A stretch of 64,000 nucleotides of DNA from positions 483,844-547,843 of the forward strand of contig CACVBU010000720.1 in assembly GCA_902728285.1 (NCBI GenBank). Reading direction: 5' to 3'. This DNA comes from Clytia hemisphaerica (taxonomy: Eukaryota > Cnidaria > Hydrozoa > Leptothecata > Clytiidae). Both the position numbers and the translations under genes were made by a program. The notes beneath the pieces are model-generated. The model was not told where the DNA came from. It did no database searches and saw only the letters and a program-made list of their open reading frames with translations. This document shows positions 33,559-56,851 of this stretch, piece after piece (the stretch's first letter is position 1; each line of letters starts with the position of its first letter).

Positions 33559-36500
33559 ATGATATTATTAAAACACACTTTTGCTTTGTTTACTTTATTA
33601 CTGGTCAGTAACATTCAAAGGACTGTTTCTGGTAAATTATACGATCAAATAGACAGACATGAAACTGTTATCAATCTCAACTACGAGAAGAATTCAGCTT
33701 CACAACGTAGGAATAAAATACATCATGTTTTAAACGAAGAACAAACATTTGGTGAGGATGATCCTCAAGAAAAAAATCGTTTGGATAGCTCCGATTTGAT
33801 GGATGAAGGATCGATTATAACAACACCTGATGAAGAGACGTTCAGTAGTGGTATACATTCCATCAATCTCCTCAGCAAAGACACTAAGGATGACAAAAAG
33901 AAAACGACGAAAGATAAGGGTAAAGGGAAAAGTGAAAAGGATAAAAAACCGAAAGACAAAGAGAAAAACAAAAATGAGATCTCAACCGGTATTGATTTGA
34001 AGTATCTCCAAGAACTCTTCCAAAATAAAGACATTGATTCCTTCCAAAAGAATTATACTGACAATCTCAAGAAAGAGGCTTTAGACAATTTATACAAAGA
34101 CCTGGTTGCTAATAAAAAGAAAGTATTTGAGGGGTTACGGAATCAAGATAAATTAAACAAGACTTCCGAAGATTCGGCTATCCGCAAGATAGTTGAAGGA
34201 GAGCGAGAAAGTGAACGTTATAACATCAACTTTCCGTTGTTTTATCATGCGGTGGGTACAATCACGTTACCGTTTGATGACCTGGTTGAACCTTTCGAAG
34301 CTTGGTATGCTGGAGAACTCAATATGAGTAGAATCGATTATTATCAAGGTATCTTTCATGACAACTTTTTTCTTTGGTATTTTTCCTGCTGATTAGGATC
34401 ATATTTTCCTGTCCAAAACCGTATATTCTAGATTAAGGATTGTTCAAAAACGTCAAAATAGGGATGAATCGTCTAATTATGTAAACATTAGACCTAAACG
34501 AACCTTGTTGTCGTCTCAGATTGCCATTATAACTTTTGACTTTTATCCCGACTTGAAAAGAACTTGTTTAGATAGATTTTCTTTATAGGTATGGATAAAA
34601 GTTACCAACGTGGAGACATTGGAAAATATGGTGTGGTTGTCAAGGTTACACCAGCTCATTGGAGTAAGAAAGGTGATCTGAGTGAAGCCAATACTCTTTC
34701 TTGTTGGTACAAAGAAGATTCTAAATGGTCAAATCGTAGAGGCCAAACTATCGTTCCTTTGAATGTTAAGAAATTTAAGGTAAATTTTCAAATTTTTTGC
34801 TTGAGTAAATACTCTTGTGATTCTCTTACGATTATTCTTCGCATTGTACTGCATAGTCAGGCTTTGGTTTCAATGGGCACACGAGAATTTTGCCAGTGGG
34901 GATAAAATGAAGAAGCGAATTTCAGTGTCGATTTTACTTTCAGTGTATGGAGATTTCTGATTTAATTGTTTTGAAAAACTCAAGAATTTCAGAGGGTTTG
35001 TCGAATTTTTTTCTCAGTGGGGATGACAGTTTTGCGACAGGAGTCATTGCGTATTATCACTTGTGGCGATTAACTTGGCCGATTCCACAGGTGGTAGGTT
35101 TCTTATTATTTCTGTTCCCTAGGGGTGTGAGACTTAAAGTTCAATCTCTCTACATTATTTTCAAGTTTGTAGGGAAGTCAAGATTCAATGGTGTTCCAAC
35201 CTACAAATTCAAATATGAAAAGCGATTCGTAGATAAGAACAATACATACACGTTGCACGTGACCCAATCAACACCTTATAAACCAATCAGATACGAGATG
35301 GTGGGGTATGATCACCTGTTGCGTTCACATTATGATCATTACATCATCGATTATTTTTCTTTCGAAGAATGGGATTTTGACTACAAAGTTCTACAAATTC
35401 CAAAAGGTACGACGCTATTATTTTTCTCAATCTTTTAATGGAAATTCCGTGTCACTATTTTCTAAACATGCATGAAAAGACTTTCGAAATTGGTTTTGTG
35501 TCAATATCTTTTGAGGCCTTTAAATTAAACTCGAATATAAAAGTGTATAGAGCTCTTCAAACTGAGCTGGAGGCGGAGGGGGTTATAGAAAATAAAGCAA
35601 ATGTAGACTTTTTCAAAATTAAGACGTTCTATTAAAATGTATTTTGTTTATGAATAAGGATCTGTAAAATTATGTAAATCTTCGTTCACTCAAATGTAAA
35701 AGTTTATACCTATGCCACGTGATAAATCTTCTTTCAAAATATTTCATACAAGGGAGATGGCTGTTAATCAATATTAGACAGAATGTGTCGGAAAAAAGTT
35801 CCGTGTGTCACCCACTTCAATAATTAGAAAATATTTGATGTGTAGCACAGAATTATTTCTGTTGGATAATATTCCACTCTCTAATATCTTTTCAACTAGC
35901 ACAAAACCGCTATTCAATTTCAAATGCTATCAGAAGTTTCAGCCTTTTTTTGAGACAAACTTTACTACTCTTTTTAAAATCACTTGATATAAGACGATCT
36001 TTAATTTATTGTTTGACAAAAAACATTCATGGGAATATTTTCGGATTGTTTCATTGTTGCATTAATGTGATTTGTGAATAATTAGGTTTCAATCACTGAG
36101 CCTTTTGAAAAAGAAACTTGGTCATATCCTCGAAAATTTTTGTGGTTTGACACATTACCTTTTTTCGGGACACCCTGTAGATGGTAGGCAGATATAATAA
36201 CAATGAAACATGACTTGCGAAGATTTAGTGTCATGTATCACACTTACACATCTAAACATGGTCATCATTAGCTTGGAGCAAAACATTCTCTTGTCCTATT
36301 TCATACCTCACCCTATTGCTTTCCATATGTCTTGCAGCACAATTCTCATTACATTTGGTGCAATAAAGAATACAAGACACAAAGAGTGTCGCCAAAGATA
36401 AAATTTCCATCACCAATATCACTATAAGCAAACCAAACTCTAACCGGATGCGATGTATCGTGTCCGTGTAGCACGGTATTCGGAAAGCTTCATCGTCACA

Positions 36501-39500
36501 GCACGAATCATATGAAACACGTCTTGGTCCCCTCCGCACTACACATTCCCCATATTCTGCACAATATACAGCAATAAAGAAAACCATTCCCGCCCTGAAC
36601 ACAATATTCAAAATATCGAGTGCTAATTTAATGCTAATATACATTCTCTTCCTGGTTAAGACACCAATGTAACCTAACAGGACATTGAAAATCAATGTTA
36701 AGGCCCCATTACACCTAAGAATAAGGGGGAAGAATATATCTCTGCAGCTGTTACGATTCGTAAATTCTTGTTCTAGATACACGTAAAAATATTCAAAAAT
36801 GGAAAATCTCAGAATTTTTCCAAATTTGCCATCTGTTAATTTTTGTAAATTCTGCCGTAAAATTACACGGAAGAATGTAAAAATTTTATCAGATTAATTT
36901 TATTGCAAAGGGCAAAACGGAAGTTCTTTAATTCGATATTTTCCCTTTTTTCGAAACCCCCCAACTTTCGAGAGGGAAAATCCTTTGTAAAGTTTGTTTG
37001 CACAGTCTACACAATAGCCAAAATTCCACACTAATCCCCACTTTCAATAGGCTGCTATTGTTGAACATTTTTCATAATTTTCCATTCCTTTGGACACCTC
37101 CAAAGGAATAGAAAATTATAAAATTAATTAAACAATAGAAACGGAGATTAGGGAGATAATCTTTCAGCGAATTCTTTATACTATTCTTTCAACTGATTAC
37201 ACAGGAGAATTTAATAAAATTGCTCACAAGTGTCAGGTGTGCAGTAAATTTCACATTATTCTTCCTTTATATTCTTAGGTGTAATGGGGCCTTTATGATT
37301 TTTGAACCAAGTGTCTATGGTCTCTCTCCTTCTTTCTTTAAACTCTTTCGGATTACGTACTTTTTTGCTTAGGATTATAAGAAGCAGCTCGTTTATCCAA
37401 TCGGACGCTTGATTGTATCACTTTCACATTCCGCTTTATCATTATTAATTCTATAAAATCAAGAACAAGAACAATTGGTTAATTTGAAAAGCAAAAACGG
37501 TGATCATTTCCCGATTTCCACTTACTAAATATAAAAAGAAAAGATAATCCTTTACATAAGGTTTATAAAGTCTTCAACAAAATTTACTAGACAGCAACAA
37601 AAAATTATTCTACTTTCACTAATTACGCAAGACATGGATGAGACGCATCCCATCTCAACTTCACAAAATTAAAACTAAGAAAAAACAGTGAAATTTCAAA
37701 GAAAAGCTCAAATATCTCCTTTTCTAAAGGCCCCATTACACCTAAGAATAAGGGGGAGAATATATCTCTGCAGCTGTTACGATTCGTAAATTCTTGTTCT
37801 AGATACACGTAAAAATATTCAAAAATGAAAAAGTTTCTAAAGAGTTTCTAAACATCGACCAGAAATGGCGACCACGACCAGCGACCACGACCGGCGACCA
37901 GATAAATTTGGGTTATCGAGTTTACCTGCTCTCTCCACCGTAGAGAACATCCAAATCGAGTCCTGATGTGGCTTTCAAATGAACCACTAGCTAGAGAATA
38001 CTAAAAGTGATTTTTGACGTTACCAGTCATTTTCTAGACAAAGTGACACTCTTTGACAAAAATATTGGCAGGGCAATTAAGTGTGATGCCTGCAAACTTT
38101 ATTACACCAAATATTTTAATTGTACCGAATGAGATGCCTTTAGTATGAATAGATAGAAATTGTCAGTAGGAAAAAGCTGGGAAGGCCAGTTTTAGAGATA
38201 TCATCTCATCAATTATTCTATTCTCTTTACATTGTCAAAATTACTTATTTTGACAAAATAATGATCTGATGATCAAATACAAAGCTTCCTAAATAAATTC
38301 CAGCACAAATCTTGCCATTAATTAATTTGATGCCGAAAATACAAAAGGATAGAAATTGACACTCTATTCAAGCTCCAAGAGCGTTGAAATGGCTGCTCTA
38401 CACGTTTTGCACGTGGCTTTACAATCACTGTAGGTGAGACAGGGGTGAGCATTACAAAGATGGCGGACGGAGCTGCAGAAATAGTTAATGTTAACAACAA
38501 GAATGACATCAACAACAACAACTTCACAGATGTAACAGATCTAGTGATAGAAATTTCAATCAACAAAAATGAACCATCCGTCCCTTTCAAAGCAAACATA
38601 AACAACCTCTATCGAGCATCAAGAAGTGATTTGATCAAACTCCTTGAATCATACCTGGACACCGACCAAGTCAAGCTACTCCGAGACCAGCTCTTCCAAA
38701 TGCTCTTGGGCGATTTCGACAACCATACCCTCTCCATCCATGGCTTTGACAAAGTTCTCAAAACCACGAAAAACCCTACTCAACACCTGAAACAAAGGCA
38801 AAATACTGATGCAACTGTCAACGATATCTACGTCATTGGGTTAAGCCTAACAGAAATGATCATTGTAGACAAACTGGCATACATGATCCTGAGACCATCC
38901 AGCATCACCACCCCACAAACACCACCTGAAATTCCGTTCCAAAACGTAATCGAAACAAATAGCAAGGAACTTCTTGGTCAAATAGATAAACTGACTAAAA
39001 CAGTTAATGATGTCAAAAATGAAAACCAGGAACTTAAAAACTATGTCAAAGAACTAATACAAAAAATGGACCAACATTTCCAAAAAGAGCACGTGCACCC
39101 TGGAAACCAACCAATCCAACCGACTAACACAGCAGCCTCTGAAAACACCCGTAATCCTCCAAAAAATTCAAGCCCCATCATCTTTGGAAACCGACTGCCT
39201 GGAGGAAACCATGTTGCCGGTAAACCGAAACCATACTCTCTGTTTGTTGGAGGCTTTAAACCGACTCTAACCGAAGACAATGTTTGGGATATAGTAGCTA
39301 ATGAAATCAGACTGACAGTAGTCAAAGTGACATTAATTCACCAGAACCATACAAACCAGGCTTTCAAAATTGACATTGATCCGTTTGAAAGAGAGAAAGC
39401 CTTCAACCCAGACATTTGGTTTCATGGTCTGGTTGTCAAACCTTTTAAGGAAAATTTTAGAAAAAAGGTCAACTACAGAAACCAACAGCCGCACATAAGA

Positions 39501-42500
39501 CAAGACAACACTGAACAAGACCAATATCATTCCGCCAACCCCCCACGATTCAACAGGAAGCAACAGAGGACACACCATCAATCAAACAACCAACAACCTC
39601 AAAGGGACATCACCCACCAGCATCAACACACAACTAGAAACCAGAAACGTCAACAACATCCCGAAATTCACCCTCTTACCCAAGCCTACAACGGACAACG
39701 CCGTACTGATACTAACCGACAAACACAGCGACAACAACGCAACAATCACCCAACTGTTCACACAGAGAACCGACAAATCCGATACCCCAACAACACAGAT
39801 CAAGACAACCAGTTTTTCATCCCATACCCTACCGACTTCCAGTTCGCCAACCAACAACCTAACTTCACACATCCCAACAGATTTGCATGCCTAGATCCAA
39901 CAGACTCTTTCAACACTCAAAATGGAGAATACTAATTTCATATCCCTGAACTGCCATGGCATCAAGGCAAATTTCAAATACATTGACTTCCTATCTTCGA
40001 CACACGACATTATTTTTCTATCCGAAACATGGATAACGGAAACTGAAAAAATATTACTACACAACTTCCAAAAAGACTTTTATATTTTCTTCCAACCAGC
40101 CAAACAAGGCTTGACAGGTCGCCCTTATGGTGGAACAGCTATGATGATAAAACGTACATTACCCTCTCCAGAACTCTTATCGAAAACAGACTTCAACACA
40201 ACAGTTAAAATACCTTTGAAAAATTATGACTTGCTTATAATTGGAGTATATCTACAATCTGTCAATAACAACCCAAACGTTAGAGATATATATTCATCAC
40301 AACTATCAAATATAGGTGGAATTATCAAACAATTTGAAAACAGCTCAGAATGCATCATACTAGGCGATTTCCAATCATGCCCAACAACCCACCCATCAGG
40401 AAGAATCGGAAAACCAAATTCACTAACCGATCACCTAAACGAATTCATCAGAACATTCAACTTGACACCTATAGATATTACAAATGGTACCGGCCCATCA
40501 TACACTTATCACCATGCTACGCTACCAAACCAGTCTTACATCGATCATATACTGGTATCGAATAACATCCTAGATAAAATAACAAACATCAACATACTAC
40601 AACAACACTACCTCAATACTAGCGACCACCTACCCATAGCTTGTAACATGAAAACTGACTTCTCACCAAGCTTCAATCACGAAATAAATGACCCAAACGC
40701 CATTCCAAACTACCTATGGAAAAATGACATTTTTGTAAATAATTTCAAAGAAACTGTATCAAAGCACCTATACTGCTCCAAAAACTCAAACATCACCGAA
40801 GAGATAACACATCTACATGACACATTAAACAACTGTGCTATTGAAACTTACAATAACCTTAAGCTCTCTGACTTCCATTTCATTAAGACAAAACCGTGGT
40901 GGAACACAGAACTTACAAAGAAAAGGAAAATTTTACAAAAGTGCTTTAATGATTGGAGAGACCGTAACTTTACCAGAGAACCATCAGACATCTCATATAA
41001 TCGATATCTTCTTGCAAGGAAGGACTTTCGCTCATCATCAAAAAGGTGCAAAAACCAAACAACTACGGATCACTTCATAAATGTAGAGAAAATTAAAACT
41101 TTCAAACCGCGTTCATATTGGAAACAAATCCGACTCCAAAATTCAAAGGATGACAAATTATACACCATCAACAACAAATCAGACGTAAACGATATCAACC
41201 AAGAGTTTAGTTCCCACTTTGATAACCTTCTGAACACACCCAGAACTGAAAACATCAATAACACTATTTCCAACAAAAAACTTCATGAGCTGCTAGCAGA
41301 CCTTGAAAAGAACAAAACCTCCGACTTCTACGTATCAGCTACTGATGTTGAAGAAGCAATCATGAGTTTGAATAAAAACAAAAACCTCCGATCCTTTCAA
41401 TATCAAAGCAGAACACTTCATTCACAGCATTTCTCCCAACATGCTATCCTACATTACACCCCTCATCAACGACATTCTCAATACAACCGATCTACCACCG
41501 GCATTATCAACATCGATCATCGTCCCAATTATGAAATCAAGCAAAAAACCAATCCAAGATCCAAACAACTACCGTGGAATCAGCCTGATCCCAATACTCA
41601 CTAAAATCATGGAGAAACTAATCATAAACAAATGTCCCTCACTGAAAAACCACAAAAACTCTCAATTTGGATTTACATCTGACGCGTCTACCGTCCATGC
41701 GGAGCTTCTCATCAGAGACACTATCTCGTATTACAATGCCAAAAACACACCAGTATATATATGCAGTCTCGATGCTGAAAAAGCCTTCGATTGCTGCAAC
41801 TGGCTACTCCTATTTGAAAAACTGAAAAGCAAAAACCTTTTGCCTGAAACTGTTTTAAAATTTCTAATAAAACTTTACGTCAACAGTGAAGCAGCCACAA
41901 GATATAGGAGTAACACCTCTCATCCCTTCCATTTATCACAAGGAGTTCGACAGGGATCGCTCCTCTCACCATATCTCTACAACATTTATACTGAGGATTT
42001 AATTGATATTGTACAGGATCTAAACCTTGGAACCTACCTACCTGGAAATATAAACACCTCTATCATTGTATTCGCGGATGATATAATCCTACTCAGCCCA
42101 ACCCTAAGCCAACTTCAAAAGATGGTCGACACATGTACAGATTTTGGATTTCAGAACGGACTCAAATTCAACATATCAAAAACCCAATTTCTCATTTCAG
42201 GGAAATCACCGATCGAACACCCCAAACTGTCCCTCAATCACAAAGAAATCCATACCAAGTCACAACTGAAACACTTAGGCTTCAACTGGCAGATGTTCAA
42301 AGACAAACTATCGCTAAGATACCACCAAAACTCACGCATTTCTGAACTTTGGGCAACTACAGCATCTCTCACCTCTTGTGGTATCAGGAAAATGCACCCA
42401 GCAACAATTGCAACAATCTTTCGATCAATTGTCGTTCCCAAAGTTCTCTACGGCATAGAGATTACAGACTGTACAAATAGTTTCATTGAAAACATAAGCA

Positions 42501-45500
42501 GACAGTGTCGCTCAGCACTAAAGCATCTCCTCAACCTATCGAAACATAGTAGCAATGATCTAATCAAATACTTCAACCTAGACTCGATCTCAAATGAAAT
42601 TACCAACCGCCAAATCAACTTGGTACAGCAACTTATGAGAAACCCTTCAACGTCAAAATACCTTCTGACTCTACTAAATACACCCTACGACCTGCGCTCA
42701 GTATCAATTTTACAGAATATCTTTGATACATGTACACAGAATAACGTTGACATCATGGATATCCTAATCACCAAAAACAAACACAACAAGCTAAAAACAT
42801 CCTCTACACTAACAACTGACAAACAAAATGAACTTAATCACTTACTTTCAAACTGGCATATATGAAAACCGACTTCTACTAAAACAAATTTTAGAATCAA
42901 ATATTCCTAGGACTTAGTGTTTAGTACATTTAAATTAAAAACAAATCCCTTTCCTTGTGAGTTTCTAACCCCTTTTTCTAATCAACACAATTACATGTCA
43001 TTATCTCAATTCTCTAGCCAAACGTTTGTTTACATTTTTGGTGATTCCCCCAAGATGGTCTCTAGCTTATGTTCCATTGTAGCCTCAGCTCCTTTTTCCG
43101 GGAGATTCCCTCTCGGGGAACTCCCCATACGATCCTTTTTTACAGCGGACGTCTTTTTAGGTAGTCTAACTAGGGCCTTCTCATCCTGTGCGCACGGAAC
43201 GAACTTACTTATATCATATTCTTATGTTTAAAAACGAAAGAGAAATATTTTACTTTTTAACTGTACATACAAAAAACACTACTTTATTATACATAGCATA
43301 GATATTTATATACCATTTCTATTGGTGATAAAAGAGATATCAATAAAAAAAAAATTACTTTTCAATTCGATAAATAAATGATCATAAGAGAAAGACTCTA
43401 CGGTGGAAAAAGAGGAAAAACTCGATAACCCAAATTTATCTGGTCGCCGGTCGTGGTCGCTGGTCGTGGTCGCCATTTCTGGTCGATGTTTAGAAACTTC
43501 CACCTCCAAAGGAATAGAAAATTATGAAATTAATTAAACAATAGAAACTGAGATTAGGGAGATAATTTTTCAGCGAATTCTTTATACTATTCTTTCAACT
43601 GATTGCACAGGAGAATTTAAAGGCCCCATTACACCTAAGAATAAGGGGGAAGAATATATCTCTGCAGCTGTTACGATTCGTAAATTCTTGTTCTAGATAC
43701 ACGTAAAAATATTCAAAAATGGAAAATCTCAGAATTTTTCCAAATTTGCCATCTGTTAATTTTTGTAAATTCTGCCGTAAAATTACACGGAAGAATGTAA
43801 AAATTTTATCAGATTAATTTTATTGCAAAGGGCAAAACGGAAGTTCTTTAATTCGATATTTTCCCTTTTTTCGAAACCCCCCAACTTTCGAGAGGGAAAA
43901 TCCTTTGTAAAGTTTGTTTGCACAGTCTACACAATAGCCAAAATTCCACACTAATCTATGGAAGCCGAGAAGTGCCATCGATATTTCAATATTTGCTGCG
44001 CAATTTCAAAGTTTGCTGCGCGATTTCAATATTTGCTGCGCGATTTCAAAGTTTGCTGCGCGATTTCAATATTTGCTGCGCGATTTCAAAGTTTGCTGCG
44101 CGATTTCAATATTTGCTGCACAATTTAGGTTCCCAGTCTAGTGCGTGGACTTATGTACTTTTGGGACATGTTAAAACCATAAATCAAAACAAAAACAAAA
44201 TGGCCGACCCATGGTGTGGGTCTTGTGGCAACGATCTCTTAAATCTGCCCCACTCTTTGTCTCCACTTAAATGTTCGATTCGTGTTGGAGCTTTCCGTTC
44301 ACCGCAATTTCCACAAAATGTATCAGCCTCAAGTAATTCTTGCCCACACTGCCCACAAAACATTGTCTAACCTCTCTTTTATCTTGATCTCAATATTTAA
44401 AGCACATTGCCCTTAACGAAATTATGTAGCATGCTTCAAAGGTATGTCAAATAGCCTCAGCTCACATTCTAATTTTGTAACTTATAAATTGCGCAGCCAA
44501 TATTGAAATTGCGCAGCCAATATTAAAATTGCGCAGCAAATATTGAAATTGCGCAGCAAATATTGAAATCCCGCAGCAAATATTGAAATTGCGCAGCAAA
44601 TATTGAAATTGCGCAGCAAATATTGAAATCGCGCAGCCAAACATTGAAATCGTGCAGTAAAACCAGATATTTTTCCATAATTATAGAAATATTTCTAGAC
44701 AAAAATAAAATTTTTTTTCCAAAAATAAAGAAATTCTTCCAAAAATAAAGAAATTTTCCGAAAATAAAGAACTTTTTCCGAAAAGAAAGAAATCATGATG
44801 GCACTTCTCGGCTTCCATACTAATCCCCACTTTCAATAGGCTGCTATTGTTGAACATTTTTCATAATTTTCCATTCCTTTGGACACCTCCAAAGGAATAG
44901 AAAATTATGAAATTAATTAAACAATAGAAACGGAGATTAGGGAGATAATCTTTCAGCGAATTCTTTATACTATTCTTTCAACTGATTACACAGGAGAATT
45001 TAATAAAATTGCTCACAAGTGTCAGGTGTGCAGTAAATTTCACATTATTCTTCCTTTATATTCTTAGGTGTAATGGGGCCTTAATAAAATTACTCACAAG
45101 TGTCAGGTGTGCAGTAAGTTTCACATTATTCTTCCTTTATATTCTTAGGTGTAATGGGGCCTTAATGCTTTCTGTTTGATTTCTTATTTTATCAAAGAAG
45201 ACACCCTCCTCCACGTTTACACCAAATTTCTGCCTTTTACACGCTTTTTTTTATAAGAATGGTTAAATCCATTTCATCATGGATATTCTTAACTTTTTGG
45301 TCGAAATTATCCTGAAATATTCTTACAGTATTCTTAAATTAAATTGAAAACCTAACCCAAATCTATAGCATCTCGAGCAAGAATTTGGGATTTTTGTGAA
45401 ACTTCATTGCTTGGGAGTAAATAGCAATATACATGTAAAAGGCTCTAAAAATTACATTCTTTTAGCTTCATTTGCCTTCGCCATGAAATTCTTACGATAT

Positions 45501-48500
45501 TCTTAATTTTTTGGCCATTTTCATCATGGACATTCTTATAAAGCCCGTGTATTCTTATAAAAATAGCGTGTATCTCCTCTCAACTCTTCACAATTTGAAG
45601 ATGAATACACTTGTTTTCTTTTATAAGAACAATTTTATAAGAACGATGAGGCTCAAAATCGCCAAAATAAAAATAATTTAAGAGCAATGCTGAGCCTGAA
45701 ATTACTCAATTTCAATCAATTTAAGGGTCATAGTAGTAAAATATGCGTACAAATCCTAAAATACTTCAATTTTACCTTATAAATAAGAACAGGATAAGAA
45801 CAATTTGAGGCTCAAAGTGCCAAAAAATAAGAACAGCTGAGCCTCAACAAAAAATTATTGGTTCTTATTAAAAAAAAGTGTAGAATCGTAATGAAAACAC
45901 ACCCCTCTCACAGACCCGGTAGGATATTTTCAGCCAGTAATAACGATCTGAAATTCGATGGGGATTGATATTCCCATATATTGTTTTCAAGTCAGAAAAT
46001 TCTGTGTGGATGGGAAGAAATAGTAAAACATTTTCAGTGATGATTAGTTTATTTGATTATTTTCACTGGAGACAAAACTTGGAAGATAATTTTCCACCGG
46101 GGACTATATTTTGGCCAATTTTTCCAGTTGTAAGGGGCAAGGGGTCCTAGTGGGTCTGTGAGAAGGGAATGTGGAAACAGATTACGTAACGTTTCAAGAC
46201 GATGCTCCAACAATAATTACTAATTACAGCTTGCTGCTAAAATGTAAAATAGTCTGGATCATAACAAGCCACTCGGCAGGTACGTATTATCAAAGATAAA
46301 CAAAAAAAATCCATTAAAATCCTAGTATCTTTTAGTATAATACACATTCGACATTGGATTTCCAAAAAAAAAACGACTTCCGTTTGTGAATACGTCTCCG
46401 TCGTGGGTTGTAACCTTCTCTCTTTGCATAGTTCTTATGAAGAAGGCCACTCCAAACCAATGGCGAGTCAATAGATACGAATTACTTATTTACTTTATAT
46501 TAAAATAAAATAAAAACCTTCTTCGCCACAATTATTCACCGCACAAAGTTAAAAATACCCATGATGAAATGAAAAAACACCATTCTTATAAAAAAAGCGT
46601 GTAGGTCCTTATCGACCTGCTTTTAAACCCGAATGAAAAATAAGTTGAGAGTAATAATTCTTTCTTAGTTGGAGAAATATATTTGAAAATTTGAAGTTAC
46701 AGAGTGATTGATGGTATTTGATGAGTTAATTTAAACGAAAAATCTCTCCACAAAAACTCTCAAATTTTTCCATCGCCCCTGAAACGTGAACTCGTGGCTA
46801 CAAAAATGGTCATCAAGAAATCAACCGGCACCTTGCACATCTGAGCAGCGCGTACAAAATATTTTTATAAGCAACTCCAATTTTCGGGTCAGGGCTGGGG
46901 TTGCTTAGCAAAAACTTGCTTTGATCACCCCTGATGTTATACCATAATTATGCTTATTGGATCAAAGGCTATCGTTTGTAATGCTTAGATTAATCTAAAA
47001 AGATTTTACTTTAAGAGATAGTGAAATAATTTTTGGCTAATTTCAGGGCTCGAACCTTACCAACTTGGTTACTTATTAAAAAAATGTGTAATCTCAAAGC
47101 CGCCAGGCTTTCTTATTGTTGCAATTTTTTGCTGATGAAACACTGGTGCATAGAGTCGAGTCAAATTTCAAAAAGAGTCTGTGTAAAACTGATGTATAAA
47201 TATTCTTACAAATGAGTTGGTTATCAACTGCAATATAAACTGAATTATAAATGATTCAATGAATAAATTTGTTAAAAAACGTAGCTTGTGGTTCATCCAC
47301 CATCACATATCAAACTTTTTATGATCATTAGTTTTCAAGCAAGATATTCTGTCTCTTATTGCTTTCCATATGTCTTTATCTTTCCATAAGATTCAGTCTC
47401 ATGTGTCACACTTACATATCTAAACATGGTTATCATTAGCTTGGAGCAAAACATTCTCTTGTCTTATTTCATACCTCACCCTATTGCTTTCCATATGTCT
47501 TGCAGCACAATTCTCATTACATTTGGTGCAATAGAGAATACAAGACACAAAGAGTGTCGCCAAAGATAAGATTTCCATCACCAATATCACTATAAGCAAA
47601 CCAAACTCTAACCGGATGCGATGTATCGTGTCCGTGTAGCACGGTATGCGGAAAGGCTCATCTTCGCAGCACGAATTGTATGAAACACCTCTTGGTCGCT
47701 TCAAAGCACATTTACCATATGCTGGTACATAAAGCTTTCCCAACAAATAAATCATTGCTGCTCTGAACAAAATGTTTAAAATATCGAGTGCTAATTTAAT
47801 GCTAATGTATGATCTCTTCCTGGTTAAGACACCAATGTAACCTAACAGGACATTGAAAATCAATGTTAGACTTGTCCACGCCGGGAATAAAAACAACTTC
47901 TTCAAATTATACATTGAGATTTTTTGAAATCTCTCAATTCCTTCGTAAGAGTTGACATCGTTGACGTAAAATCCACCAGCCACCGTGGCAAGCACCATCC
48001 ATATCAAAAGCAACGTTGTAGTGATCTTTTGCCATTTCCAAGTTATATTGCTACTCTCACGGCGCTGTATATCCATTCTCTTAAGTGTAAAGATGAAAAC
48101 AAGTGTCTGCTTCTCTTCCTATTTCTCAACTATCTCGTTTCATAATCATTTTCTGCTGATTGAAGCGTTATTTATTCATATCAAACCTAAACGTCATTCA
48201 AATTTTTTCCTCAATCAAAAGGAAGGGTCGTTAAATTATTTATTGGCTTCACTCCAATCCCGCCATTCTTCGAATTTTTTATACCATGGTATAATTGTGT
48301 GTTTCTGGTTTACCACCTCTTTTCTAAACTAAAAGATAACTTTACATCAGTGGCGTTGTGGGAAAATCTTTCTGCAGGGGCCAAAGTCAATTTTTTTAAT
48401 GAAATAAAATTTTCATAAAAATAAAAAATAAAATTTTAAGAATTTACGAGGGATTTGAGGGATTTGAGGGATTAGATTTTAGATCTTTGTAATTTTGGAA

Positions 48501-51500
48501 CCCTTACAGAGACTCAATTTGCGTTTTAATGGTTTTTGTACCCCTTCGACTTTCGAGGGTGTGAAAAAGGGACCGTTATGGCTCGCACATACCCGGTACC
48601 TATTTTGCCTAAGCACCTCCTCCCCCCTTCGGATCGCAAGTTACAACCTGGTTAGTGGGTAGCTCGTTACAATTGAGAAGCCCTGTTTTTGTTGTGGTCT
48701 ACTTTTAAGGACAATCTTAGGCCTATAATTTTCATATGTGAAAAAAAAATATTTCTGAAATCAAGATGGTTCAAAGTTTGTAGTTTTTTTTTTCTTCATT
48801 TTCAAAATTTTTTGAATTATTTTTCTCATAAATTAGTACATTTGAAGCATAGGTTGGAAAATGGCAAGCTAAATAAAAATTAGTACACATTTAAAACGAA
48901 TGGACTTTAACATCATATCAGCGCTCAATCATCGAATTGACAAAGTACGCATGCGCTGTCTTTTGTTTTTAGAATGCGGGTCAGTTTAGAAAGACCTAGT
49001 GGTAAGTGAGAAATTCCAAAGGGTCTACTTTCTAATGTCATGTTTCAATAAAAAAACATTGTTTTTATTATGTTTTATTTCTTTAATAAAGAATGTAACT
49101 ATTTTTTACAATAGATGGAAAATGAGCTGATGACAAACTAAAATTTTAAAGCTAGAATTAAACATTTAAATGAGTAATATACTATTTATCAAGACGTGTC
49201 ATGCACTTTTTGAAAAAGATTCTTTTTATGTATAATTGTTTCTCGTTCTTCACAATGGTTGGAAGGCCTTGGTAGCAAAAAGTCGAAATGATGGAGGCTT
49301 ATTTATTCATAATCCTTTATTATTCCACATTCTTTTCAACGGTTGGGAGGCTTTTACGCACAGTGAGCTTTCTTAATTTCGGATGAAATTTGATCTTGTG
49401 TTTGTTTTGTTACATCATTTTCAATACATCTTATGCCATCGAGACTGGTACATGCAATCAGTGTAAACAAAGATAGAATCTCCATCACCAATATCACTAT
49501 AAGCAAACCATACTCAAACCTGATGCGATCAATCGTGTCCGTGTGGCACGGTATGCAAAACACTTCATCATCTTTGCACCGCGAACCATCATATGAAAGA
49601 CCTCTTGGTCCATTCCGCACACAAAAACCATATGACGTTACGAAGACAAAACCCAATAGAAGAATCATTGCCAGTCTGAAAAAACTGTTCAACAAATCAA
49701 ACCACATTTTCTTACTAATGAACACTTCCTTCCGAGTATAAATTCCAGTATATCCTAACAAGACATTGAACAATAATGTCCAGCTTGTCCATACTGGGAA
49801 GAATGATCTGCTTTTGACTTGATACATCGAAACTTTTTGAAGTTTTTCTCTCCCTTCATAAGAATAGATGTCACTAACATACAATCCACCAGCCACTGTG
49901 GCTATTACCATCCATGTTAATTGCAAGGTTGTAGTGATCTTTTGCCATTTCCAGTATGTATTGTTTTGTGGTGGCAACATATCAATAAGAGTTTTCTTGC
50001 TTTTCTCAAGAGCAAACTATCTCTGCTCTTTGCTGCTTTTCTCTTGTCTTGGATCGTTTATTTTTATGATGACTTTTTGTGGTAGCAATAAAAGTCAATT
50101 ATTTTCAAACTGTAAAGTCGTTAAGTAAAGTAATTTAATTACTATGTTATTCAAGTAGAATGGTCATTAAATTATTTGTCGTCTTCGTTCCAAGAAGTGT
50201 GTTTTTCTGTGGCAGAGACGGTAAGGTTCTAATTTGACTAGATCCTAAGCAGCCGAGAACGATGGTAAATCAGCACTTTTACCGTCCTCGATTTTGCGGG
50301 TCAGAACTGCGGGTTATTCCAGATCGCTTCAGTCAATCTACCGTCCTCAAAAGTGCAAATACATAAACCCGCTATTCTTCAAGCAAAGGAGCCTCGAAAC
50401 TAGATGAGTTATCCGTGTTATAAGAAGCACCAAGGCTAGATAAAGATCTTTGACTATTAGAAAGCACGTTTTGTACATGTACACAAACAAGGTCTTCTTC
50501 TTCCTCTTTTGTTTCGTTTGTGATGGTGACCAAACAACACAAACAGTCTTGTGTGCAATAAACTATACAAGACACAATCAATGTCACCAGAGATAAGATT
50601 TCCATCACCAATATCACTATTAGCAAACCAAATTCTAACCTGATGCGATGTATCGTGTCCGTGTAGCACGGTATGCTGAAAAACTTGATCGTCGAAACAC
50701 AAAGTATTGCTCAAAACAGGTGGAATTTTATAAGTTTCATTTGTCATCTTTTGTGGTCCCTCTCCACGCGCACTCACCATACACTGGCACATAAATCCAT
50801 CCCAATAAATAAATCATCCCTCCTCTGAACGAAATGTTCAGCATATCAAGTCCCAGTTTGATGCTTGTAAACACTTGCTTCTTGGTACAAAATCCAATAT
50901 ATCCCAATAAGATATTGAAAAGCAATGACCAACTTGTCCATGCTGGGAACAAAAATGTTTTCTTGACTTTGTACATTGAGATTTCTTGTAAGTTTGTATT
51001 TGTTATGACGTCACTAACGTAAAATCCACCCGCTAGAGAAGCTAATAACATCCATGCCAATAGAAGTGTTGTTATAAAGTTCTGCCATCTCCAGAATTTC
51101 ACTTTCTGCTCATATTGAAGGCGGTGCATTTTCCCATTCAGAAAAATTTTAAAAAGTTTTTATTAAGGGAACAAACCAAATCGAAAGTCCGTTTAGAATG
51201 ATAGTTCTACTTGACCTAACCAATAATTCTTTCCCCGCGGTAAGTCATTCTCTTAGTGATTTTCATAGGTCTGGGATTCAGACTTATTTACTCTTGGATA
51301 CTAACCATCTCTTCATAATAAATTTTACTTTTAGACCGCAATGTTTCAGAAAGTGGTTTTTCATTCCTCCCATTTTCATTTAGCTTATTGTTTTCCCTTT
51401 GCTAAAGCAAAACGCAACATCCCTAAGATATGAATGCCCATTCACTTGTTTTCACCATAGCCAATTGTTCAATAAAACCACTGAAACCATAGTAATTTGT

Positions 51501-54500
51501 CTTTTCTGAACAAGATTCTTTGCACAGTCATACTCAAGGGTCATATCAACCAGGAGTAACATAGATATTTTGACCTCCAAAGATTCATCTTTTTTTGTGC
51601 AAAGTGTTCCCTTTTTGAATAATCTATGACTAAGCGTCGGTAACCTTAAAATTTAGAATCTTTTCTACCTTAAGGGTAGAAATTTTGGCGGAAAGAAAAT
51701 TTGGTGAAAATCCACCAAATTAAGTTCCCGCAATATTTAATTATTCCCGCCATCCACCAAATTAAATTCCCGCCAAATTTTAGTTAGTGTATTGGTTCCC
51801 CCAAATGTGTGCTATTTCAGGCCAGGTTTTTTTCTTATTTAATGGCGTTTTTTAGACAAAAATGTCCTTCATCCGCCAAATTAAACTCCCGCCAAAATTT
51901 CTCTCGTTTACGTCACCTTCTAATTCGCAAGTCTGCAAGTTTTTGTTGTGTATTTCTCGCTCTCTGAAGTTTAAACCACTCTTTAATGTGTATCTCGCGT
52001 ATGCGTAGTCAACGGCAATAAATTCTGAAATTTCTGTAGCTATCGGGTCAGTTTACATACAAATGTATTCGAAGGTAAGAACAGTTTGAACAGACGGCTC
52101 ATTAATAATTGTCTTTCTTATCCCAATAGATTTGAGGTATTGTCATTGTATCCAGGCATCGTCCATGGACATACCAATAAATTCTATATACAATTTTTCT
52201 TTAGAATACAAATGTTACAAGCAACTAGAGAAGATGAAATCCCATTTCGAAGCGAATCCCATGTGGGAATTTCTACACGGTGAACACGTGGAGGCACGTG
52301 AACATGAACTCAACAAAACATATCATAATTACCAAAAGAAACACAAGAAGTCCTCCAAAAGTGACGTCGAAACACACAAGAGGAAAAATATCTTCCGCCA
52401 TAATCAAAGGTAAACGGAAATGGATTTTCTTAGAAGTTTTTCTGATATACTGAAGCTGAAAAAGTGGATATTTTCATTAAGGGTTGTTTGACGCCAGCTC
52501 TCAATATCGCTATAGTTCCAGGTATAAGGTCCCATAGAATCCATGATTTTTAGTTAAATAAGCTCCTATTCACCACCTCTATAGACATCTCACTAATAAG
52601 ACATTTGAGTTCATGTTCACGTGCTTCCACGTGTTCACCGTGTAGAAATTCCCACATGGGATTCGCTTCGAAATGGGATTTCATCTTCTCTAGTTGCTTG
52701 TAACATTTGTATTCTAAAGAAAAATTGTATATAGAATTTATTGGTATGTCCATATGGACGATGCCTGGATACAATGACAATACCTCAAGTCTTTTTGGCT
52801 GCAAAACATGATTTCCCACTTTCAGTCAATGTAAAATTTCTTCTCCGATCCCTTTGTCAGGTTTATCCATTCACACAACCGTGCTCATTTGAATTACACT
52901 TTGGAAGTGAACCATCTGTCAGATGTCCTTGATGAAGAATTTGAAATGTTGAAAGGACAATCATCACCCGATACACCAGAGTTGAAGAAAGAATTGAATG
53001 AAATCCCTCAACTTCGTATCAACATTCCCAAAACATTACCCAAGAACCTGGATTGGAGGGATTATGGTAAACTGTCGACTAATTTATATTATGAAATGTT
53101 ATGTTTCTCGGAATTACATTTTTACCGTACTTGCACTTTATCCTTATTCGTATCGTAATTGGCTACCTTCTTTATTTGATTTTCAAGAAATTTTTCATCA
53201 AAACACTTTACATTTCAGGAGCGGTTGGTCCAGTTCACAGCCAGAGTTTCTGTGCATCATGCTGGGCTTTTTCTGCCATTGGTGCCATCGAAGGTGCTTT
53301 TGCTATCAAGGTACAATTAAATCTTGATCTACAAGGAACATATACTCCTTTAGTATGTTCAGTGATATCACACTAGACTCATTTCAGAGTTATGCAACGG
53401 TCCCGCGAACGGCTTAAATATTGAAAGCATTCATTTTGAACTTTGCTTTCTTTAGAACGGCAGTATGGAGCAATTATCTATCCAACAATTATTGGATTGT
53501 TCCTGGGGGTATAACAACAATGGATGTCGAGGTGGTTGGAGTTGGAGAGCTTTTCAATTCGTCAAAGATCATGGAATAGCAACCAGAAAAAGTTATGGCA
53601 AATATTTGGGACAGGTATGCTTCATTTTTGCTATATTATCAACATTCTTTGGTAAAAAATCAATGTACAAGGAATACAAAATTCTATTTTGAAATAGGAT
53701 AATATTCAAATTGTTGGGAATTTCCGAACAGTTTACTTTGTATAAACCTTGAAAGGTAATAGACATGTCAATAATTCTTCAATGTTCAGAATTTATCTTG
53801 TTCCATAGGAAGGATATTGCCATTGTGGAAGTAAAGAACATTGCGACAACGTCCAAAAGATTTCTTATCGAACCATCGAAAAACACAATGCGGAAAAATT
53901 GAAAGTTGCCCTCGCAATGTATGGTCCTGGAAGTATTGCCGTCCAATGTGCACGAAAAACATTCAAATTCTATTCATCAGGCATTTATGACGACCCTAAA
54001 TGCAGTAAGCTTAAAGTTTTTGCGTTTTACTTTTCTTGTCTATTACATGTGACAATAAAAGTAATCTTACCTCTCTTTGATAAAATTGCTGAAAGTAATA
54101 TTTTCAACAATCTGCTCCCTTTGATTCGTTGATTGAGTCATCAATACACTGCGGTTGGCCCAAGTTTTATTTTATATTTGTATTTTCTTCACTTTTCAGC
54201 ACAAAAGACAGACCATGCAGTGTTAGCTATCGGTTATGGTGAAGAGGAAAATATCCCGTATTGGATCATCAAGAATAGTTGGGGAAAGTTATGGGGTGAT
54301 AGAGGATTTATGAAAATATCCATGAAAAAAGACTTCTGTGGGGTCCTGAGCAATGGCCCTTTAATGGTTTCTGTGGGTGGCTGGTCAAATGAGACATTTC
54401 CTTTCCAGCATATGAAAAGGGTGGTTCCAAGTGATAGCAAAAAGTTTGATTTGCAAGCGAAGGAACGGAATGCGTTATTCAAGGAGAATGGTGCCGAACT

Positions 54501-54576
54501 TACAGAATCGGATTTCTTTGTTATACCAGATCACGTGACTGCTTATGTTAACGAATCTCCGAAAAAACCCGCTTGA
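33559..54576 (+). CDS. Secreted papain-family (C1A) protease of the 26/29-kDa type, 9 exons, 818 aa
   Basis: A cysteine endopeptidase with a long N-terminal domain preceding an ordinary cathepsin propeptide and catalytic domain. Exons: 33559-34348, 34589-34779, 35166-35406, 52205-52409, 52861-53066, 53219-53310, 53456-53614, 53809-54004, 54200-54576; every phase joins and the total is 2457 nt. It starts with a signal peptide (MILLKHTFALFTLLLVSN), then a Lys-rich low-complexity stretch at about 110-146. The 26-kDa-type domain follows (YHAVGTITLPFDDLVEPFEAWY, GVPTYKFKY, YTLHV, IRYEMVGYDHLLRSHYDHY). The propeptide has FRHNQRFIHSHNRAHLNY and VNHLSD. The catalytic domain has Q553, C559 (CASCWAFS), H699 (TDHAVLAIGYG) and N719 (IKNSWG), so all active residues are present. 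Intron 3 spans 16.8 kb and holds other genes. The family is known from insects and other invertebrates, in blood cells and digestion; the role here is not known. Confidence 0.9.
35407..36251. other. Start of the 16.8-kb protease intron
   Basis: AT-rich with no supported exon. An in-frame-looking stretch at 35420-35635 (MHEKTFEIGF, LQTELEAEGVIENKAN) follows directly after the exon-3 donor but does not match the family's continuation. That continuation is found instead, in the correct phase, at 52205. Confidence 0.45.
36252..36700 (-). pseudogene. Four-TM family paralogue 1, N-terminally truncated by a MITE
   Basis: The minus-strand frame begins at LTLIFNVLLGYIGVLTRKR, i.e. from the second membrane segment of the family, and ends at a normal C-terminus. 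It keeps the cysteine-rich loop (YGECVVRRG, DSCCDDEAFRIPCYTDTIHR) and the last membrane segment (FGLLIVILVMEILSLATLFVSCIL). Everything upstream is replaced by the MITE at 36701-37292. The first membrane segment and FPAWTS region of paralogue 2 have no counterpart beyond the MITE, so that part was already lost. The MITE supplies an in-frame ATG (36782), leaving a 176-codon chimeric open frame. The C-terminal 60 residues are nearly identical to paralogue 2 (47420-48076), so the duplication is recent. I treat it as a pseudogene; expression would change that view. Confidence 0.75.
36701..37292. mobile_element. PIF/Harbinger-like MITE, copy 1 (592 bp)
   Basis: Terminal repeats AGGCCCCATTACACCTAAGA and its complement ending GGGGCCT at 37292. 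TTA is duplicated at 36698-36700 and 37293-37295; a 3-bp TWA duplication plus GGCCC-type ends is the usual PIF/Harbinger pattern. It is intact and uninterrupted, and serves as the reference for the nested copies 2 and 3. Non-coding apart from contributing 27 codons to the chimeric frame of tetraspan paralogue 1. Confidence 0.85.
38445..39935 (+). CDS. LINE ORF1 protein, 496 aa, RRM-like and Q/N/H-rich
   Basis: An intact frame. An N-terminal Asn-rich segment (NVNNKNDINNNN) is followed by a helical region, then a probable coiled coil at about 165-215 (KELLGQIDKLTKTVNDVKNE). An RRM-like unit begins at about residue 262 (YSLFVGGFKPTLTEDNVWDI, with VVKVTLIHQ as a following strand). The last ~150 residues are very rich in Gln, Asn, His and Arg (RKQQRTHHQSNNQQPQRD). 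ORF1 proteins of this kind bind the element's RNA and form trimers or RNP particles; that is family knowledge, not seen here. The coding sequence is strikingly A- and C-rich, unlike the host exons. The stop at 39933-39935 overlaps the ORF2 start by 14 bases. Confidence 0.8.
   Translation: MSITKMADGAAEIVNVNNKNDINNNNFTDVTDLVIEISINKNEPSVPFKANINNLYRASRSDLIKLLESYLDTDQVKLLRDQLFQMLLGDFDNHTLSIHGFDKVLKTTKNPTQHLKQRQNTDATVNDIYVIGLSLTEMIIVDKLAYMILRPSSITTPQTPPEIPFQNVIETNSKELLGQIDKLTKTVNDVKNENQELKNYVKELIQKMDQHFQKEHVHPGNQPIQPTNTAASENTRNPPKNSSPIIFGNRLPGGNHVAGKPKPYSLFVGGFKPTLTEDNVWDIVANEIRLTVVKVTLIHQNHTNQAFKIDIDPFEREKAFNPDIWFHGLVVKPFKENFRKKVNYRNQQPHIRQDNTEQDQYHSANPPRFNRKQQRTHHQSNNQQPQRDITHQHQHTTRNQKRQQHPEIHPLTQAYNGQRRTDTNRQTQRQQRNNHPTVHTENRQIRYPNNTDQDNQFFIPYPTDFQFANQQPNFTHPNRFACLDPTDSFNTQNGEY
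39922..42865 (+). pseudogene. LINE ORF2: endonuclease/reverse transcriptase with one frameshift
   Basis: The first frame, 39922 to about 41385, has the APE endonuclease: FISLNCHGIKANF, IIFLSETWIT, GGTAMMIKR, CIILGDFQSCP, SYIDHILVSN and NTSDHLPIACN (catalytic SDH). The second frame, about 41390-42865, has the reverse transcriptase: IIVPIMKSSKKP, NYRGISLIPILTKIMEK, QFGFTSDASTVHAE, SLDAEKAFDCCNW, GVRQGSLLSPYLYNIY and VFADDIILLS. The break is at about 41385-41392 (AAAAACCTCCGATCC), where the first frame drifts into unrelated residues and the second picks up DPFNIKAEHFIHSISPN. The total length is one base over a multiple of three, so one extra base suffices. Every catalytic motif is otherwise intact, implying a young insertion. 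The start ATG lies inside the last codons of ORF1, suggesting re-initiation or coupled translation. Confidence 0.85.
43989..44128. repeat. Tandem array, 20-bp unit, 7 copies
   Basis: Units TTTGCTGCGCGATTTCAA plus two variable bases (AG or TA alternating). Seven cores occur at 20-bp spacing from 43991. It reads in frame as CCAISIFAARFQSLLRDF-type repeats, but that is a by-product of the array. Confidence 0.9.
44200..44370 (+). other. Small Cys-rich open frame inside the foldback element
   Basis: From ATG 44200 a 56-codon frame reads MADPWCGSCGNDLLNLPH and ends SSNSCPHCPQNIV. It has two CxxC pairs about 40 residues apart, as a zinc ribbon or RING-like fragment could have. It lies between the inverted minisatellites, and its base composition (more G and C) is unlike the surroundings. 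It may be a captured host gene fragment. It has no splice-site or similarity support, so function is not claimed. Confidence 0.3.
44489..44660. repeat. Tandem array, 20-bp unit, inverted relative to 43989-44128
   Basis: Units of the type GCGCAGCAAATATTGAAATT at 20-bp spacing, 8-9 copies, the reverse complement of the left array. Early units have CAGCCAATATT; later ones drift (CCCGCAGC, CGTGCAGT). Confidence 0.9.
45239..46602. mobile_element. TIR element, ACACGCTTTTTTTATAAGAA ends, 1.36 kb
   Basis: The left end ACACGCTTTTTTTTATAAGA, then a CATTTCATCATGG block, is matched in reverse at the right end (CCATGATGAAATG, then CATTCTTATAAAAAAAGCGT). Internal copies of ATTCTTATAAAAATAGCGTG (about 45550-45572) and many ATAAGAAC/AAGAACAATT words suggest repeated internal rearrangement. 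No coding region is supported inside, and no target duplication was established. Confidence 0.65.
46603..47419. other. Intronic stretch, no gene recognised
   Basis: AT-rich. Near its right edge (about 47330-47420) the sequence TTGCTTTCCATATGTCTT repeats part of the tetraspan coding sequence that follows, implying a small partial duplication of the 3' end of paralogue 2. Confidence 0.4.
47420..48076 (-). CDS. Unrecognised four-TM protein, paralogue 2, intact, 218 aa
   Basis: A single-exon minus-strand gene inside the protease intron. Four hydrophobic segments are visible at about 18-38 (ITTTLLLIWMVLATVAGGFY), 67-85 (WTSLTLIFNVLLGYIGVL), 93-117 (ISIKLALDILNILFRAAMIY) and 160-185 (FGLLIVILVMEILSLATLFV). 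Between segments 3 and 4 is a loop with conserved cysteines (YGKCALKRPRGVSYNSCCED, then IPCYTDTIHRIRLE), probably disulfide-bonded and extracellular. The tail is Cys-rich then polar (CTKCNENCAARHMESNRV). The layout recalls claudin/MARVEL/MS4A-like tetraspan proteins, but I see no W-GLW-C-C signature, so I assign no family. Two further paralogues lie just upstream on the same strand and a truncated one downstream, a tandem cluster. The start is chosen at MDIQRRES because the hydrophobic segment follows at a normal distance, as in the paralogues. Confidence 0.75.
   Translation of the reverse strand: MDIQRRESSNITWKWQKITTTLLLIWMVLATVAGGFYVNDVNSYEGIERFQKISMYNLKKLFLFPAWTSLTLIFNVLLGYIGVLTRKRSYISIKLALDILNILFRAAMIYLLGKLYVPAYGKCALKRPRGVSYNSCCEDEPFRIPCYTDTIHRIRLEFGLLIVILVMEILSLATLFVSCILYCTKCNENCAARHMESNRVRYEIRQENVLLQANDNHV
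48077..49353. other. Spacer between tetraspan paralogues 2 and 3
   Basis: No gene recognised. About 48520-48640 (CCCTTCGACTTTCGAGGG, then GGTACCTATTTTGCCTAAGC and CACCTCCTCCCCCC) resembles the right half of the MITE at 59560-59886, so a truncated copy sits here. The rest is AT-rich. Confidence 0.45.
49354..49980 (-). CDS. Unrecognised four-TM protein, paralogue 3, intact, 208 aa
   Basis: A single exon with the same architecture as paralogue 2: WKWQKITTTLQLTWMVIATV (segment 1), SWTLLFNVLLGYTGIYTRKE (segment 2), FDLLNSFFRLAMILLLGFVF (segment 3), the cysteine loop SYGFCVRNGPRGLSYDGSRC ... FCIPCHTDTIDRIRFEYG, and segment 4 LLIVILVMEILSLFTLIAC. The end differs (MIEND-type replaced by IRCIENDVTKQTQDQISSEI), so the C-terminal tail diverges while the loop and the segment-4 block stay conserved. 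That pattern suggests selection on the membrane core and the loop. It is more diverged from paralogue 2 than paralogue 1 is. Function is unknown. Confidence 0.75.
   Translation of the reverse strand: MLPPQNNTYWKWQKITTTLQLTWMVIATVAGGLYVSDIYSYEGREKLQKVSMYQVKSRSFFPVWTSWTLLFNVLLGYTGIYTRKEVFISKKMWFDLLNSFFRLAMILLLGFVFVTSYGFCVRNGPRGLSYDGSRCKDDEVFCIPCHTDTIDRIRFEYGLLIVILVMEILSLFTLIACTSLDGIRCIENDVTKQTQDQISSEIKKAHCA
49981..50371. other. Spacer between tetraspan paralogues 3 and 4
   Basis: No coding region. A loose inverted pair (GGTAAATCAGCACTTTTACC at about 50263, and ACCGTCCTCAAAAGTGC at 50340) surrounds a CGGGTCAGAACTGCGGGTTA stretch; no element could be defined. Confidence 0.3.
50372..51129 (-). 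pseudogene. Four-TM family paralogue 4, two frame breaks
   Basis: Homology runs the full length of the family but through three frames. The N-terminal part (51129 to about 50770) has segments 1-3 (FITTLLLAWMLLASLAGGFY, SWSLLFNILLGYIGF, IKLGLDMLNISFRGGMIYLL) and VPVYGECAWRG. The middle (about 50770-50690) reads GPQKMTNETYKIPPVLSN. The C-terminal part (about 50690-50372) has SIPCYTDTIHRIRLEFG and segment 4. The total of 758 nt is two over a multiple of three, so two single-base insertions are enough; the second is next to a five-T run (CAAGTTTTTCAGC on the coding strand). It also lacks the loop cysteines seen in the other copies and has a unique acidic C-terminus (KEEEEDLVCVHVQNV, EAPLLEE). The intact-looking tail argues for recent decay or for assembly errors. 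Confidence 0.7.
51130..51677. other. Upstream of tetraspan paralogue 4
   Basis: No gene or repeat pair recognised; it should include the promoter of paralogue 4. Confidence 0.35.
51678..51902. mobile_element. MITE with AGAAATTTTGGCGG ends, 225 bp
   Basis: Perfect 14-bp termini AGAAATTTTGGCGG and CCGCCAAAATTTCT. Several internal CCGCCAAATTAA and TTCCCGCCAAAT words are arranged in both orientations. Non-coding. The word usage links it to the sequence at about 790-990 and, less closely, to 8490-8852. Confidence 0.7.
52131..52788. repeat. Inverted duplication of protease exon 4 and its acceptor
   Basis: The left arm, 52131-52312, contains the end of intron 3, the acceptor TTTTCTTTAG and the first ~108 bases of exon 4. 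The right arm, 52605-52788, is its reverse complement with only a few differences (for example ATATGG for ATGG at about 52752). The arms are about 183 bp with a spacer of about 290 bp. The left arm carries the functional exon, because it alone continues into LNKTYHNYQKKHKKSSKSD and the donor at 52410. The right arm lies in intron 4 and reads the exon antisense. Confidence 0.85.
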
Positions 54577-55928: not shown

Positions 55929-56851
55929 ATGACGATCGATGTAAAAGGTCTGGTGAGGGAATACCTCCTCATTTTTATTCTCTACACATTGGATTTGGGT
56001 ACGGAGTTTGCTGTATACACTGAGAACCTCAAGGCACGTACACGGTATGAAAAATGGTTGAAAAGTGATTATACGTATCAGTTGAATCGGACCACAGGGT
56101 TTGGGATATGTCAATCGTCCAACTGGGACAAGAAAGATTACCAGGATAAGGTTGGATTGTATGGTCGGTTGCTGGATACCTATCTATTCTTTTTGGTCAT
56201 TTCCGGAGCTATCTTTTTATGTTACCTGCTTGCATATCTTGGTTTGTTCTCCGCTCATGGCACCGCGCGCAGTATATCGAAGAGAATCGTGATCACGTGG
56301 TACGCGTCAAATTCGCGTTCGGTTTTTTACTCAGTTTTGCGCTTGATATCCCTGGATCTTGTCTAGCAGTAATATTGTATTCTATACGGCAAGGAGAACG
56401 TGGGTTGCATTGTTGGGATTGTGCGCAAGATGTTGGGAAATGTGTCAATAAGCATGAATTGGAAGAAAACATCTATTTCTCACGTGTTGTTATCGTGGTT
56501 ATGATGTTCGCGCTGGTCATCGTGTCTGCTTGGAAAGGAATCACTACATTCTATCGATGGTCCAAAACCGATAAAGTTGATTGCTGGCAGATCAGGGGAT
56601 GCGTCGCTCTGTTTGTTGGTGTCTTCTATGTGGTGATTGTGTTGACGCCCAGCCTGGGTGTTTTCAAATACGAGTTATTCATGCTACCTTCAGAGAAAGC
56701 TAACGTCTTCGCGCAATTCACTGATTCGCTTTTTATGATCGGGTTACTAGGCTGGATCATCTTCTTGGTTGTGGGATGTTGTTTTCCGATTATCAAATGT
56801 ATCCGAATCGGTTCATCACCCATCATCAGTAATAAGAAAACCAATGTTTGA
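55929..56851 (+). CDS. Unrecognised multi-pass membrane protein with a GC-repeat frame break
   Basis: The first frame runs from ATG 55929 through MTIDVKGLVREYLLIFILYT, an extracellular-looking region with TTGFGICQSSNW, and a hydrophobic segment (TYLFFLVISGAIFLCYLLAY). The reading then continues in another frame from about 56270: AQYIEENRDHVVRVKFAFGF, a segment FLLSFALDIPGSCLAVILYS, a Cys loop (GLHCWDCAQDVGKCVN), then VVIVVMMFALVIVSAW, VALFVGVFYVVIVL and FMIGLLGWIIFLVVGCCFPI, ending SNKKTNV. The total length 923 nt is two over a multiple of three, and the switch lies at CACCGCGCGCAG, so one extra GC unit explains it. Five to six membrane segments are visible. The ENIYFSRV and CWDCAQ stretches are distinctive but match no family I can name. 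It could be an active gene with an assembly error, or a young pseudogene. Confidence 0.6.

Follow-up and report, generated by a model that had tools for sequence, protein, structure and literature searches.

In the 64-kb stretch of DNA analysed here (the window; 35.7% G+C, no N), the third intron of a papain-type cysteine protease gene holds an antisense array of four related genes for small membrane proteins. We read this as a nested-gene array of the ordinary kind, made up of copies of a membrane-protein family that we could not place, and we assign this reading a probability of roughly 0.85 on sequence evidence. The nested genes are single-exon, and all four lie wholly between exons 3 and 4 and run opposite to the protease. 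As an earlier note on this DNA had described them, two copies are intact (A and B), one is truncated (copy 1) and one is frame-broken (D).

The protease gene consists of nine exons on the plus strand (33559-54576) with GT-AG borders. The earlier note had given it an unbroken frame of 818 codons; the frame is unbroken, and its length in the present nine-exon model is 815 codons including the stop (814 residues). The start of exon 3 was set at 35178 because the frame is kept there, though the acceptor (gtagggaag) is less typical. The junction of exons 3 and 4 can be seen in the sequence as it was first proposed: AAAG/gtacga at 35406 and tttag/AATACAAATG at 52205 join in phase 1 to encode K-E-Y-K-C-Y. 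Pfam places Inhibitor_I29 at residues 443-499 (E 3.9e-13, 50.0 bits against a cut-off of 24.4) and Peptidase_C1 at residues 531-740 (E 7e-64, 216.3 bits against 20.7), and by sequence the product is a papain-type (I29 and C1) cysteine protease. The segments QSFCASCWAFS, DHAVLAIGYG and KNSWG, read by eye in the translation, contain what we take to be the catalytic Gln-Cys-His-Asn of C1A enzymes. The relatives in the PDB (best 60 of 175) are pro-cathepsins H, K, S and L and other papain-type proteases. N-terminal of I29, Pfam gives no match at E 0.01. This region is conserved in three paralogues of the same genome (on contigs C881, C549 and C760), with homologous exons in the same order; the 3' part of exon 1 has a homologue in each of them, and no homologue of exon 2 was detected in the C760 paralogue. 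The protease presumably resembles those C1A proteases that carry an additional N-terminal region, like counting-factor-associated protein D, with which it has the I29 propeptide and the C1 domain in common; it differs from them in that one intron is swollen to 16.8 kb.

That 35407-52204 is an intron and not an intergenic gap is best supported by the three paralogues: each has an intron at this position, also in phase 1, with lengths of 337 bp (C549), 373 bp (C881) and ~4,370 bp (C760). The claim of one interrupted protease gene is strongly supported by this identity of position and phase. The intron of the C760 paralogue contains antisense open frames of 155, 168 and 156 codons (7119-7583, 8542-9045 and 9094-9561 of locus L014, plus in the locus numbering), which by eye are unlike the membrane-protein family.

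The two intact nested genes are 55% identical over 206 codons, with a ratio of non-synonymous to synonymous substitution rates (dN/dS) of 0.29. Because the corresponding ratio of proportions, pN/pS, is 0.45 (95% interval 0.36-0.56), A and B are not chance open frames, and by this comparison of sequences the pair is under purifying selection. The dN/dS value is 0.32 for copy 1 against A and 0.24 for the family members E and F. Comparison of A with the 5' part of D gives 0.11; there the synonymous sites are almost saturated. The homology of copy 1 stops at 36700, where a ~600-bp inverted-repeat element begins, and neither tblastn of the window with A and B nor comparison of the intron with itself recovered the missing 5' part. 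Synonymous divergence is uneven along the array. The lowest 45-codon stretch between A and B lies at codons 123-167 (20 of 1000 shuffles were as low), and low stretches were also found between A and D at codons 127-185 (8 of 1000) and between A and copy 1 at codons 170-214 (37 of 1000). This pattern is suggestive only of partial sequence exchange (conversion) within the array.

Mobile elements have contributed to the size of the intron. The nest listed in Table 1 comprises further copies of the ~600-bp element, a second inverted-repeat element, a long interspersed nuclear element (LINE) of the endonuclease/reverse transcriptase (APE/RT) type and a third element. Among the best 40 of 844 candidates, the ~600-bp element has 12 other near-full copies, 11 of them 98-99% identical and one 91%. 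At least four other copies that match the query stretch over its whole length at 97-99% identity end, like the LINE, at 43354 (best 40 of 904 candidates); a fifth copy (97%) ends 4 nucleotides later, and partial pieces also end at 43354. Since the element copies elsewhere are 97-99% identical, the swelling of the intron is in good part recent. Three insertion layers can be distinguished: the young LINE lies inside the inverted-repeat element at 37843-43498, which itself splits a 600-bp element.

The family extends beyond this locus. The window lies at 483844-547843 of contig C500 in a genome of 417 Mb and 951 contigs. This genome was searched by scoring best candidates only, and member counts are thus lower bounds. 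Searches with three members return the same places: the array in the window, two genes on contig C796, and one each on C797 and C850. Because four of the eight copies are on three other contigs, a family confined to this protease gene is ruled out. The two C796 members share an intron of a minus-strand gene for a DDX21-type helicase, and both carry TTGGGAAA directly before the ATG. A piece of the helicase GUCT domain was missing, and two of 40 possible small exons fit a loose pattern. One of them, a 45-bp stretch flanked by good splice sites, supplies the expected piece: with it the GUCT match extends from positions 1-59 to 1-95 and its score rises from 58.5 to 93.8 bits. The other is inside a family member. 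By sequence, the C850 member is probably nested antisense in a CCDC34-like gene, the joined exons of which match at E 1.5e-24. The Pfam match covers exons on one side of the member only, and the first two exons of this host, on the other side, are placed by splice sites and phase alone. The C797 member lies between two convergent genes and is intergenic by eye. An acetylcholine-receptor-like channel gene adjoins one family member, and this gene, with those for secreted multi-domain proteins in the window, indicates an animal genome by our reading. Between the exons of the acetylcholine-receptor-like gene on C797, and on the same strand, we noticed by eye a PARP-like open frame of 724 codons (L019 5342-7513, minus strand) that is likely another nested gene. 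In total, six of the eight copies at two of the four loci are firmly nested, or seven at three loci if the C850 host is right; six of these seven are antisense to the host.

Table 1. Coordinates of the protease gene, its nested genes and associated elements. Positions are those of the window unless a contig or locus is named.
Feature	Position	Strand	Remarks
Protease exon 1	33559-34348	+	signal-like N terminus by eye; conserved N-terminal region begins here
Protease exon 2	34589-34779	+	homologues in C881 and C549
Protease exon 3	35178-35406	+	ends in phase 1
Protease intron 3	35407-52204	+	16,798 bp; position and phase 1 as in three paralogues
Copy 1	36252-36704	-	3' part only; matches codons 69-218 of A
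~600-bp element	36698-37296		39-bp terminal inverted repeats
Mobile-element nest	36698-45166		8,469 of 16,798 bp, including a ~430-bp unclassified stretch (37297-37724)
Second inverted-repeat element	37843-43498		interrupted by the APE/RT LINE
APE/RT LINE	38388-43354	+	Exo_endo_phos, RVT_1, upstream open frame; provisional 5' limit
Third element	43957-44812		20-bp minisatellites
Copy A	47420-48076	-	intact, 218 amino acids
Copy B	49354-49980	-	intact, 208 amino acids
Copy D	50372-51129	-	frame broken in second outer loop, between 50680 and 50758
Protease exon 4	52205-52409	+	
Inverted copy of exon 4 acceptor region	52605-52813	-	in intron 4; pairs with 52107-52313
Protease exon 5	52861-53066	+	end of I29 propeptide, start of C1
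Protease exon 6	53219-53310	+	catalytic Cys
Protease exon 7	53456-53614	+	
Protease exon 8	53809-54004	+	
Protease exon 9	54200-54576	+	catalytic His and Asn; stop
C796 members	628704-629360, 630347-630940 (L015 6701-7357, 8347-8940)	- and +	in one 4.4-kb helicase intron
C850 member	L021 299-849	-	probably in a ~1.8-kb intron of a CCDC34-like gene (+)

We propose that a single-exon gene was copied into intron 3 after the protease paralogues had split. Tandem duplication could then have raised the number to four or more, with sequence exchanged in patches among the copies, two of which would have decayed subsequently. On this proposal, which is built on sequence features, A and B may be transcribed from their own promoters, and the protease transcript would run through them antisense and remove them with the intron. 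Our guess from topology is that each protein probably serves as a small organiser or adaptor at the membrane, its two termini lying in the cytosol and its second outer loop carrying cysteines. The four paralogous hosts, with introns from 337 bp to 16.8 kb, allow the gain of nested genes and the gain of mobile elements to be ordered, and the locus is a clean case for how introns take in foreign genes.

Such an arrangement fits what is described for other animals. In a study of seven vertebrates, nested genes make up 4.3-8.7% of genes, simple nested pairs are on opposite strands in 74.3% (human) and 77.8% (mouse) of cases, and internal genes come mostly from duplication into introns (PMC8467205). 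As in the nested genes described there, the internal genes here are short and single-exon, and lie on the opposite strand in a large intron of an unrelated multi-exon gene; the difference is that the intron contains an array of paralogues and not one gene, and that the family is nested in one, probably two, other hosts. The same study reports that the expression divergence of nested genes is not significantly raised in mammals, and cites a raised divergence in Drosophila (PMC8467205). The earlier note had also suggested that nesting couples the fate and perhaps the expression of the membrane proteins to the protease. We found no support for such coupling. The family is also present on three other contigs, and nested genes are frequent in animals. 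Nothing known about nested genes is overturned by this locus.

Several observations weigh against the nested array as we describe it. At a Kyte-Doolittle threshold of 1.6, four hydrophobic segments are present in A, E and G, three in F and H, and two in B. The four transmembrane segments claimed for the family are thus borne out by hydropathy for A, E and G and not evenly for the rest, and in B they are suggested by homology and a low-confidence four-helix model. The ~4.4-kb intron of the C760 paralogue leaves the size of the ancestral intron unsettled. No stretch of low synonymous divergence was seen in the pairs B-D, A-E and E-F (555, 302 and 521 of 1000 shuffles were as low). Errors of assembly could account for the broken frame of D and also for the inverted copy at 52605-52813, which is near-perfect. 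Finally, A has no AATAAA or ATTAAA within 400 nucleotides past its stop, and B has AATAAA 33 and 47 nucleotides past its own. Such signals occur in 405 of 2000 random 100-nucleotide and 1122 of 2000 random 400-nucleotide stretches of the window, and because they are this frequent their presence or absence decides little.

The claim that the family stands outside known families was upheld. In a Pfam scan of the eight members the lowest E was 0.021; the family hit, one of bacterial export, scores 14.8 bits where the cut-off is 25. A profile of the membrane family had no match among PDB sequences at E up to 10. No paper on the family was found in the titles and abstract openings of the open-access papers searched. 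Tetraspanins have a CCG motif in their large second loop. The second loop of A has CC and not CCG, and PF00335 is not among the Pfam families listed. The known tetraspan families tested by Pfam, PDB sequence and fold gave no firm placement, and a family without a Pfam match may interest researchers of tetraspan proteins.

It is doubtful, in our view, that the family is a diverged branch of CD20/MS4A (PF04103). The two are alike in size and in the number of hydrophobic segments. CD20 has cysteines in its second outer loop, and so has the membrane family. A CD20/MS4A-like fold appears in the low-confidence model of A (predicted local distance difference test, pLDDT, 60). In a Foldseek search with this model, Fc-epsilon-RI takes three of the first four rows and a chain of the dystrophin complex the other (E 0.058 to 0.28); CD20 comes at rank 13. 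In a second fold comparison, designed helical bundles score above 8k7t_B (Z up to 14.6 against 13.0), and LRRC8 and JAGN1 tie with it. The model of B (pLDDT 56) recovers none of these matches, which leaves a weak fold match in one of two models. By sequence, the eight members give one match to PF04103 (E 0.21) and none over the cut-off, and none of the nested-family members is among the 13 places found by a genome-wide PF04103 search. Seven places in the genome exceed the Pfam CD20 cut-off (three on C564 and one each on C113, C142, C630 and C941; L032-L038). A profile comparison of the family with six CD20-like exon stretches, from five of the seven places and their close copies (one place without an open stretch was left out), gave no alignment (probability 0.2%). 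The membrane family is single-exon, whereas the CD20-like places of this genome match over exon-sized open stretches only. Kinship with CD20/MS4A, as far as these models and searches go, is possible but unproven. If the animal is an invertebrate, as we suppose, the seven places bear on the 2010 conclusion that invertebrates are without MS4A-like genes (PMC2826416). A search for GFP gave no match here or in the control genomes, and so does not bear on the phylum.

We also think it unlikely that the nested copies or the host protease are non-functional, with the array decaying and the exon 4 acceptor locked in a hairpin. Half of the nested copies (two of four) are broken, and the inverted copy in intron 4 (149 nucleotides at 99% and 60 nucleotides at 83%) pairs with the exon 4 acceptor region in a very stable predicted hairpin, at -386.4 kcal/mol against a mean of -160.9 (standard deviation 7.3) for 20 shuffles. 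If this prediction is right, the hairpin may hinder the splicing of the giant intron, or the inverted copy may be a fault of assembly. However, the frames of A and B are open and the pair is under constraint, and all nine protease exons are open and encode a C1 domain that scores 216.3 bits.

There is little to recommend the larger claim of a novel animal family of single-exon, four-transmembrane proteins akin to CD20/MS4A that spreads through introns of unrelated genes (protease, RNA helicase, coiled-coil gene) and is kept there mostly antisense, with nesting favoured and not accidental. PMC8467205 cites a ratio of intron to intergenic DNA of about 1:1. Under such a split, nesting would occur by chance at three or more of four loci with a probability of ~0.31 and at two or more with ~0.69; on that assumption the nesting seen is not beyond chance.

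That the protease is really two genes, a 5' gene ending right after exon 3 and a 3' protease beginning right before exon 4, seems highly improbable. The intron is 45-50 times as long as in two paralogues. Without splicing at the donor, the exon 3 frame would run into a stop at 35436-35438, so that the 5' half might in principle end there, and the 3' half might begin at an in-frame ATG at 52165, ahead of exon 4. In the three paralogues, however, the corresponding halves are connected at an identical codon and phase, over a short intron in two cases, and a product started at 52165 would lack an obvious signal peptide by eye. An assembly misjoin, with the block of membrane genes and mobile elements belonging elsewhere and placed in the protease by error, is hardly credible either: the 99% inverted repeat of exon 4 and the broken copy D could each mark consensus problems, but the window is free of N, the protease exons are in order and orientation on both sides of the intron, and the array continues to the exon 4 flank without a gap.

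Other parts of the window were also inspected. No RNA gene was found in it by Rfam at gathering scores or by ARAGORN. It also encodes secreted multi-domain proteins. After the protease, two hydrophobic open frames, of 146 and 233 codons, overlap at 55926-56851 (plus strand); they are perhaps another multi-transmembrane gene, and the longer has no Pfam match over the cut-off. Outside the intron, two further reverse-transcriptase-type open frames were seen by eye at 22724-26111 (plus) and 21795-22820 (minus). Two related SEC14-like open frames, also recognised by eye, lie on opposite strands at 6803-7591 (plus) and 9510-10406 (minus).

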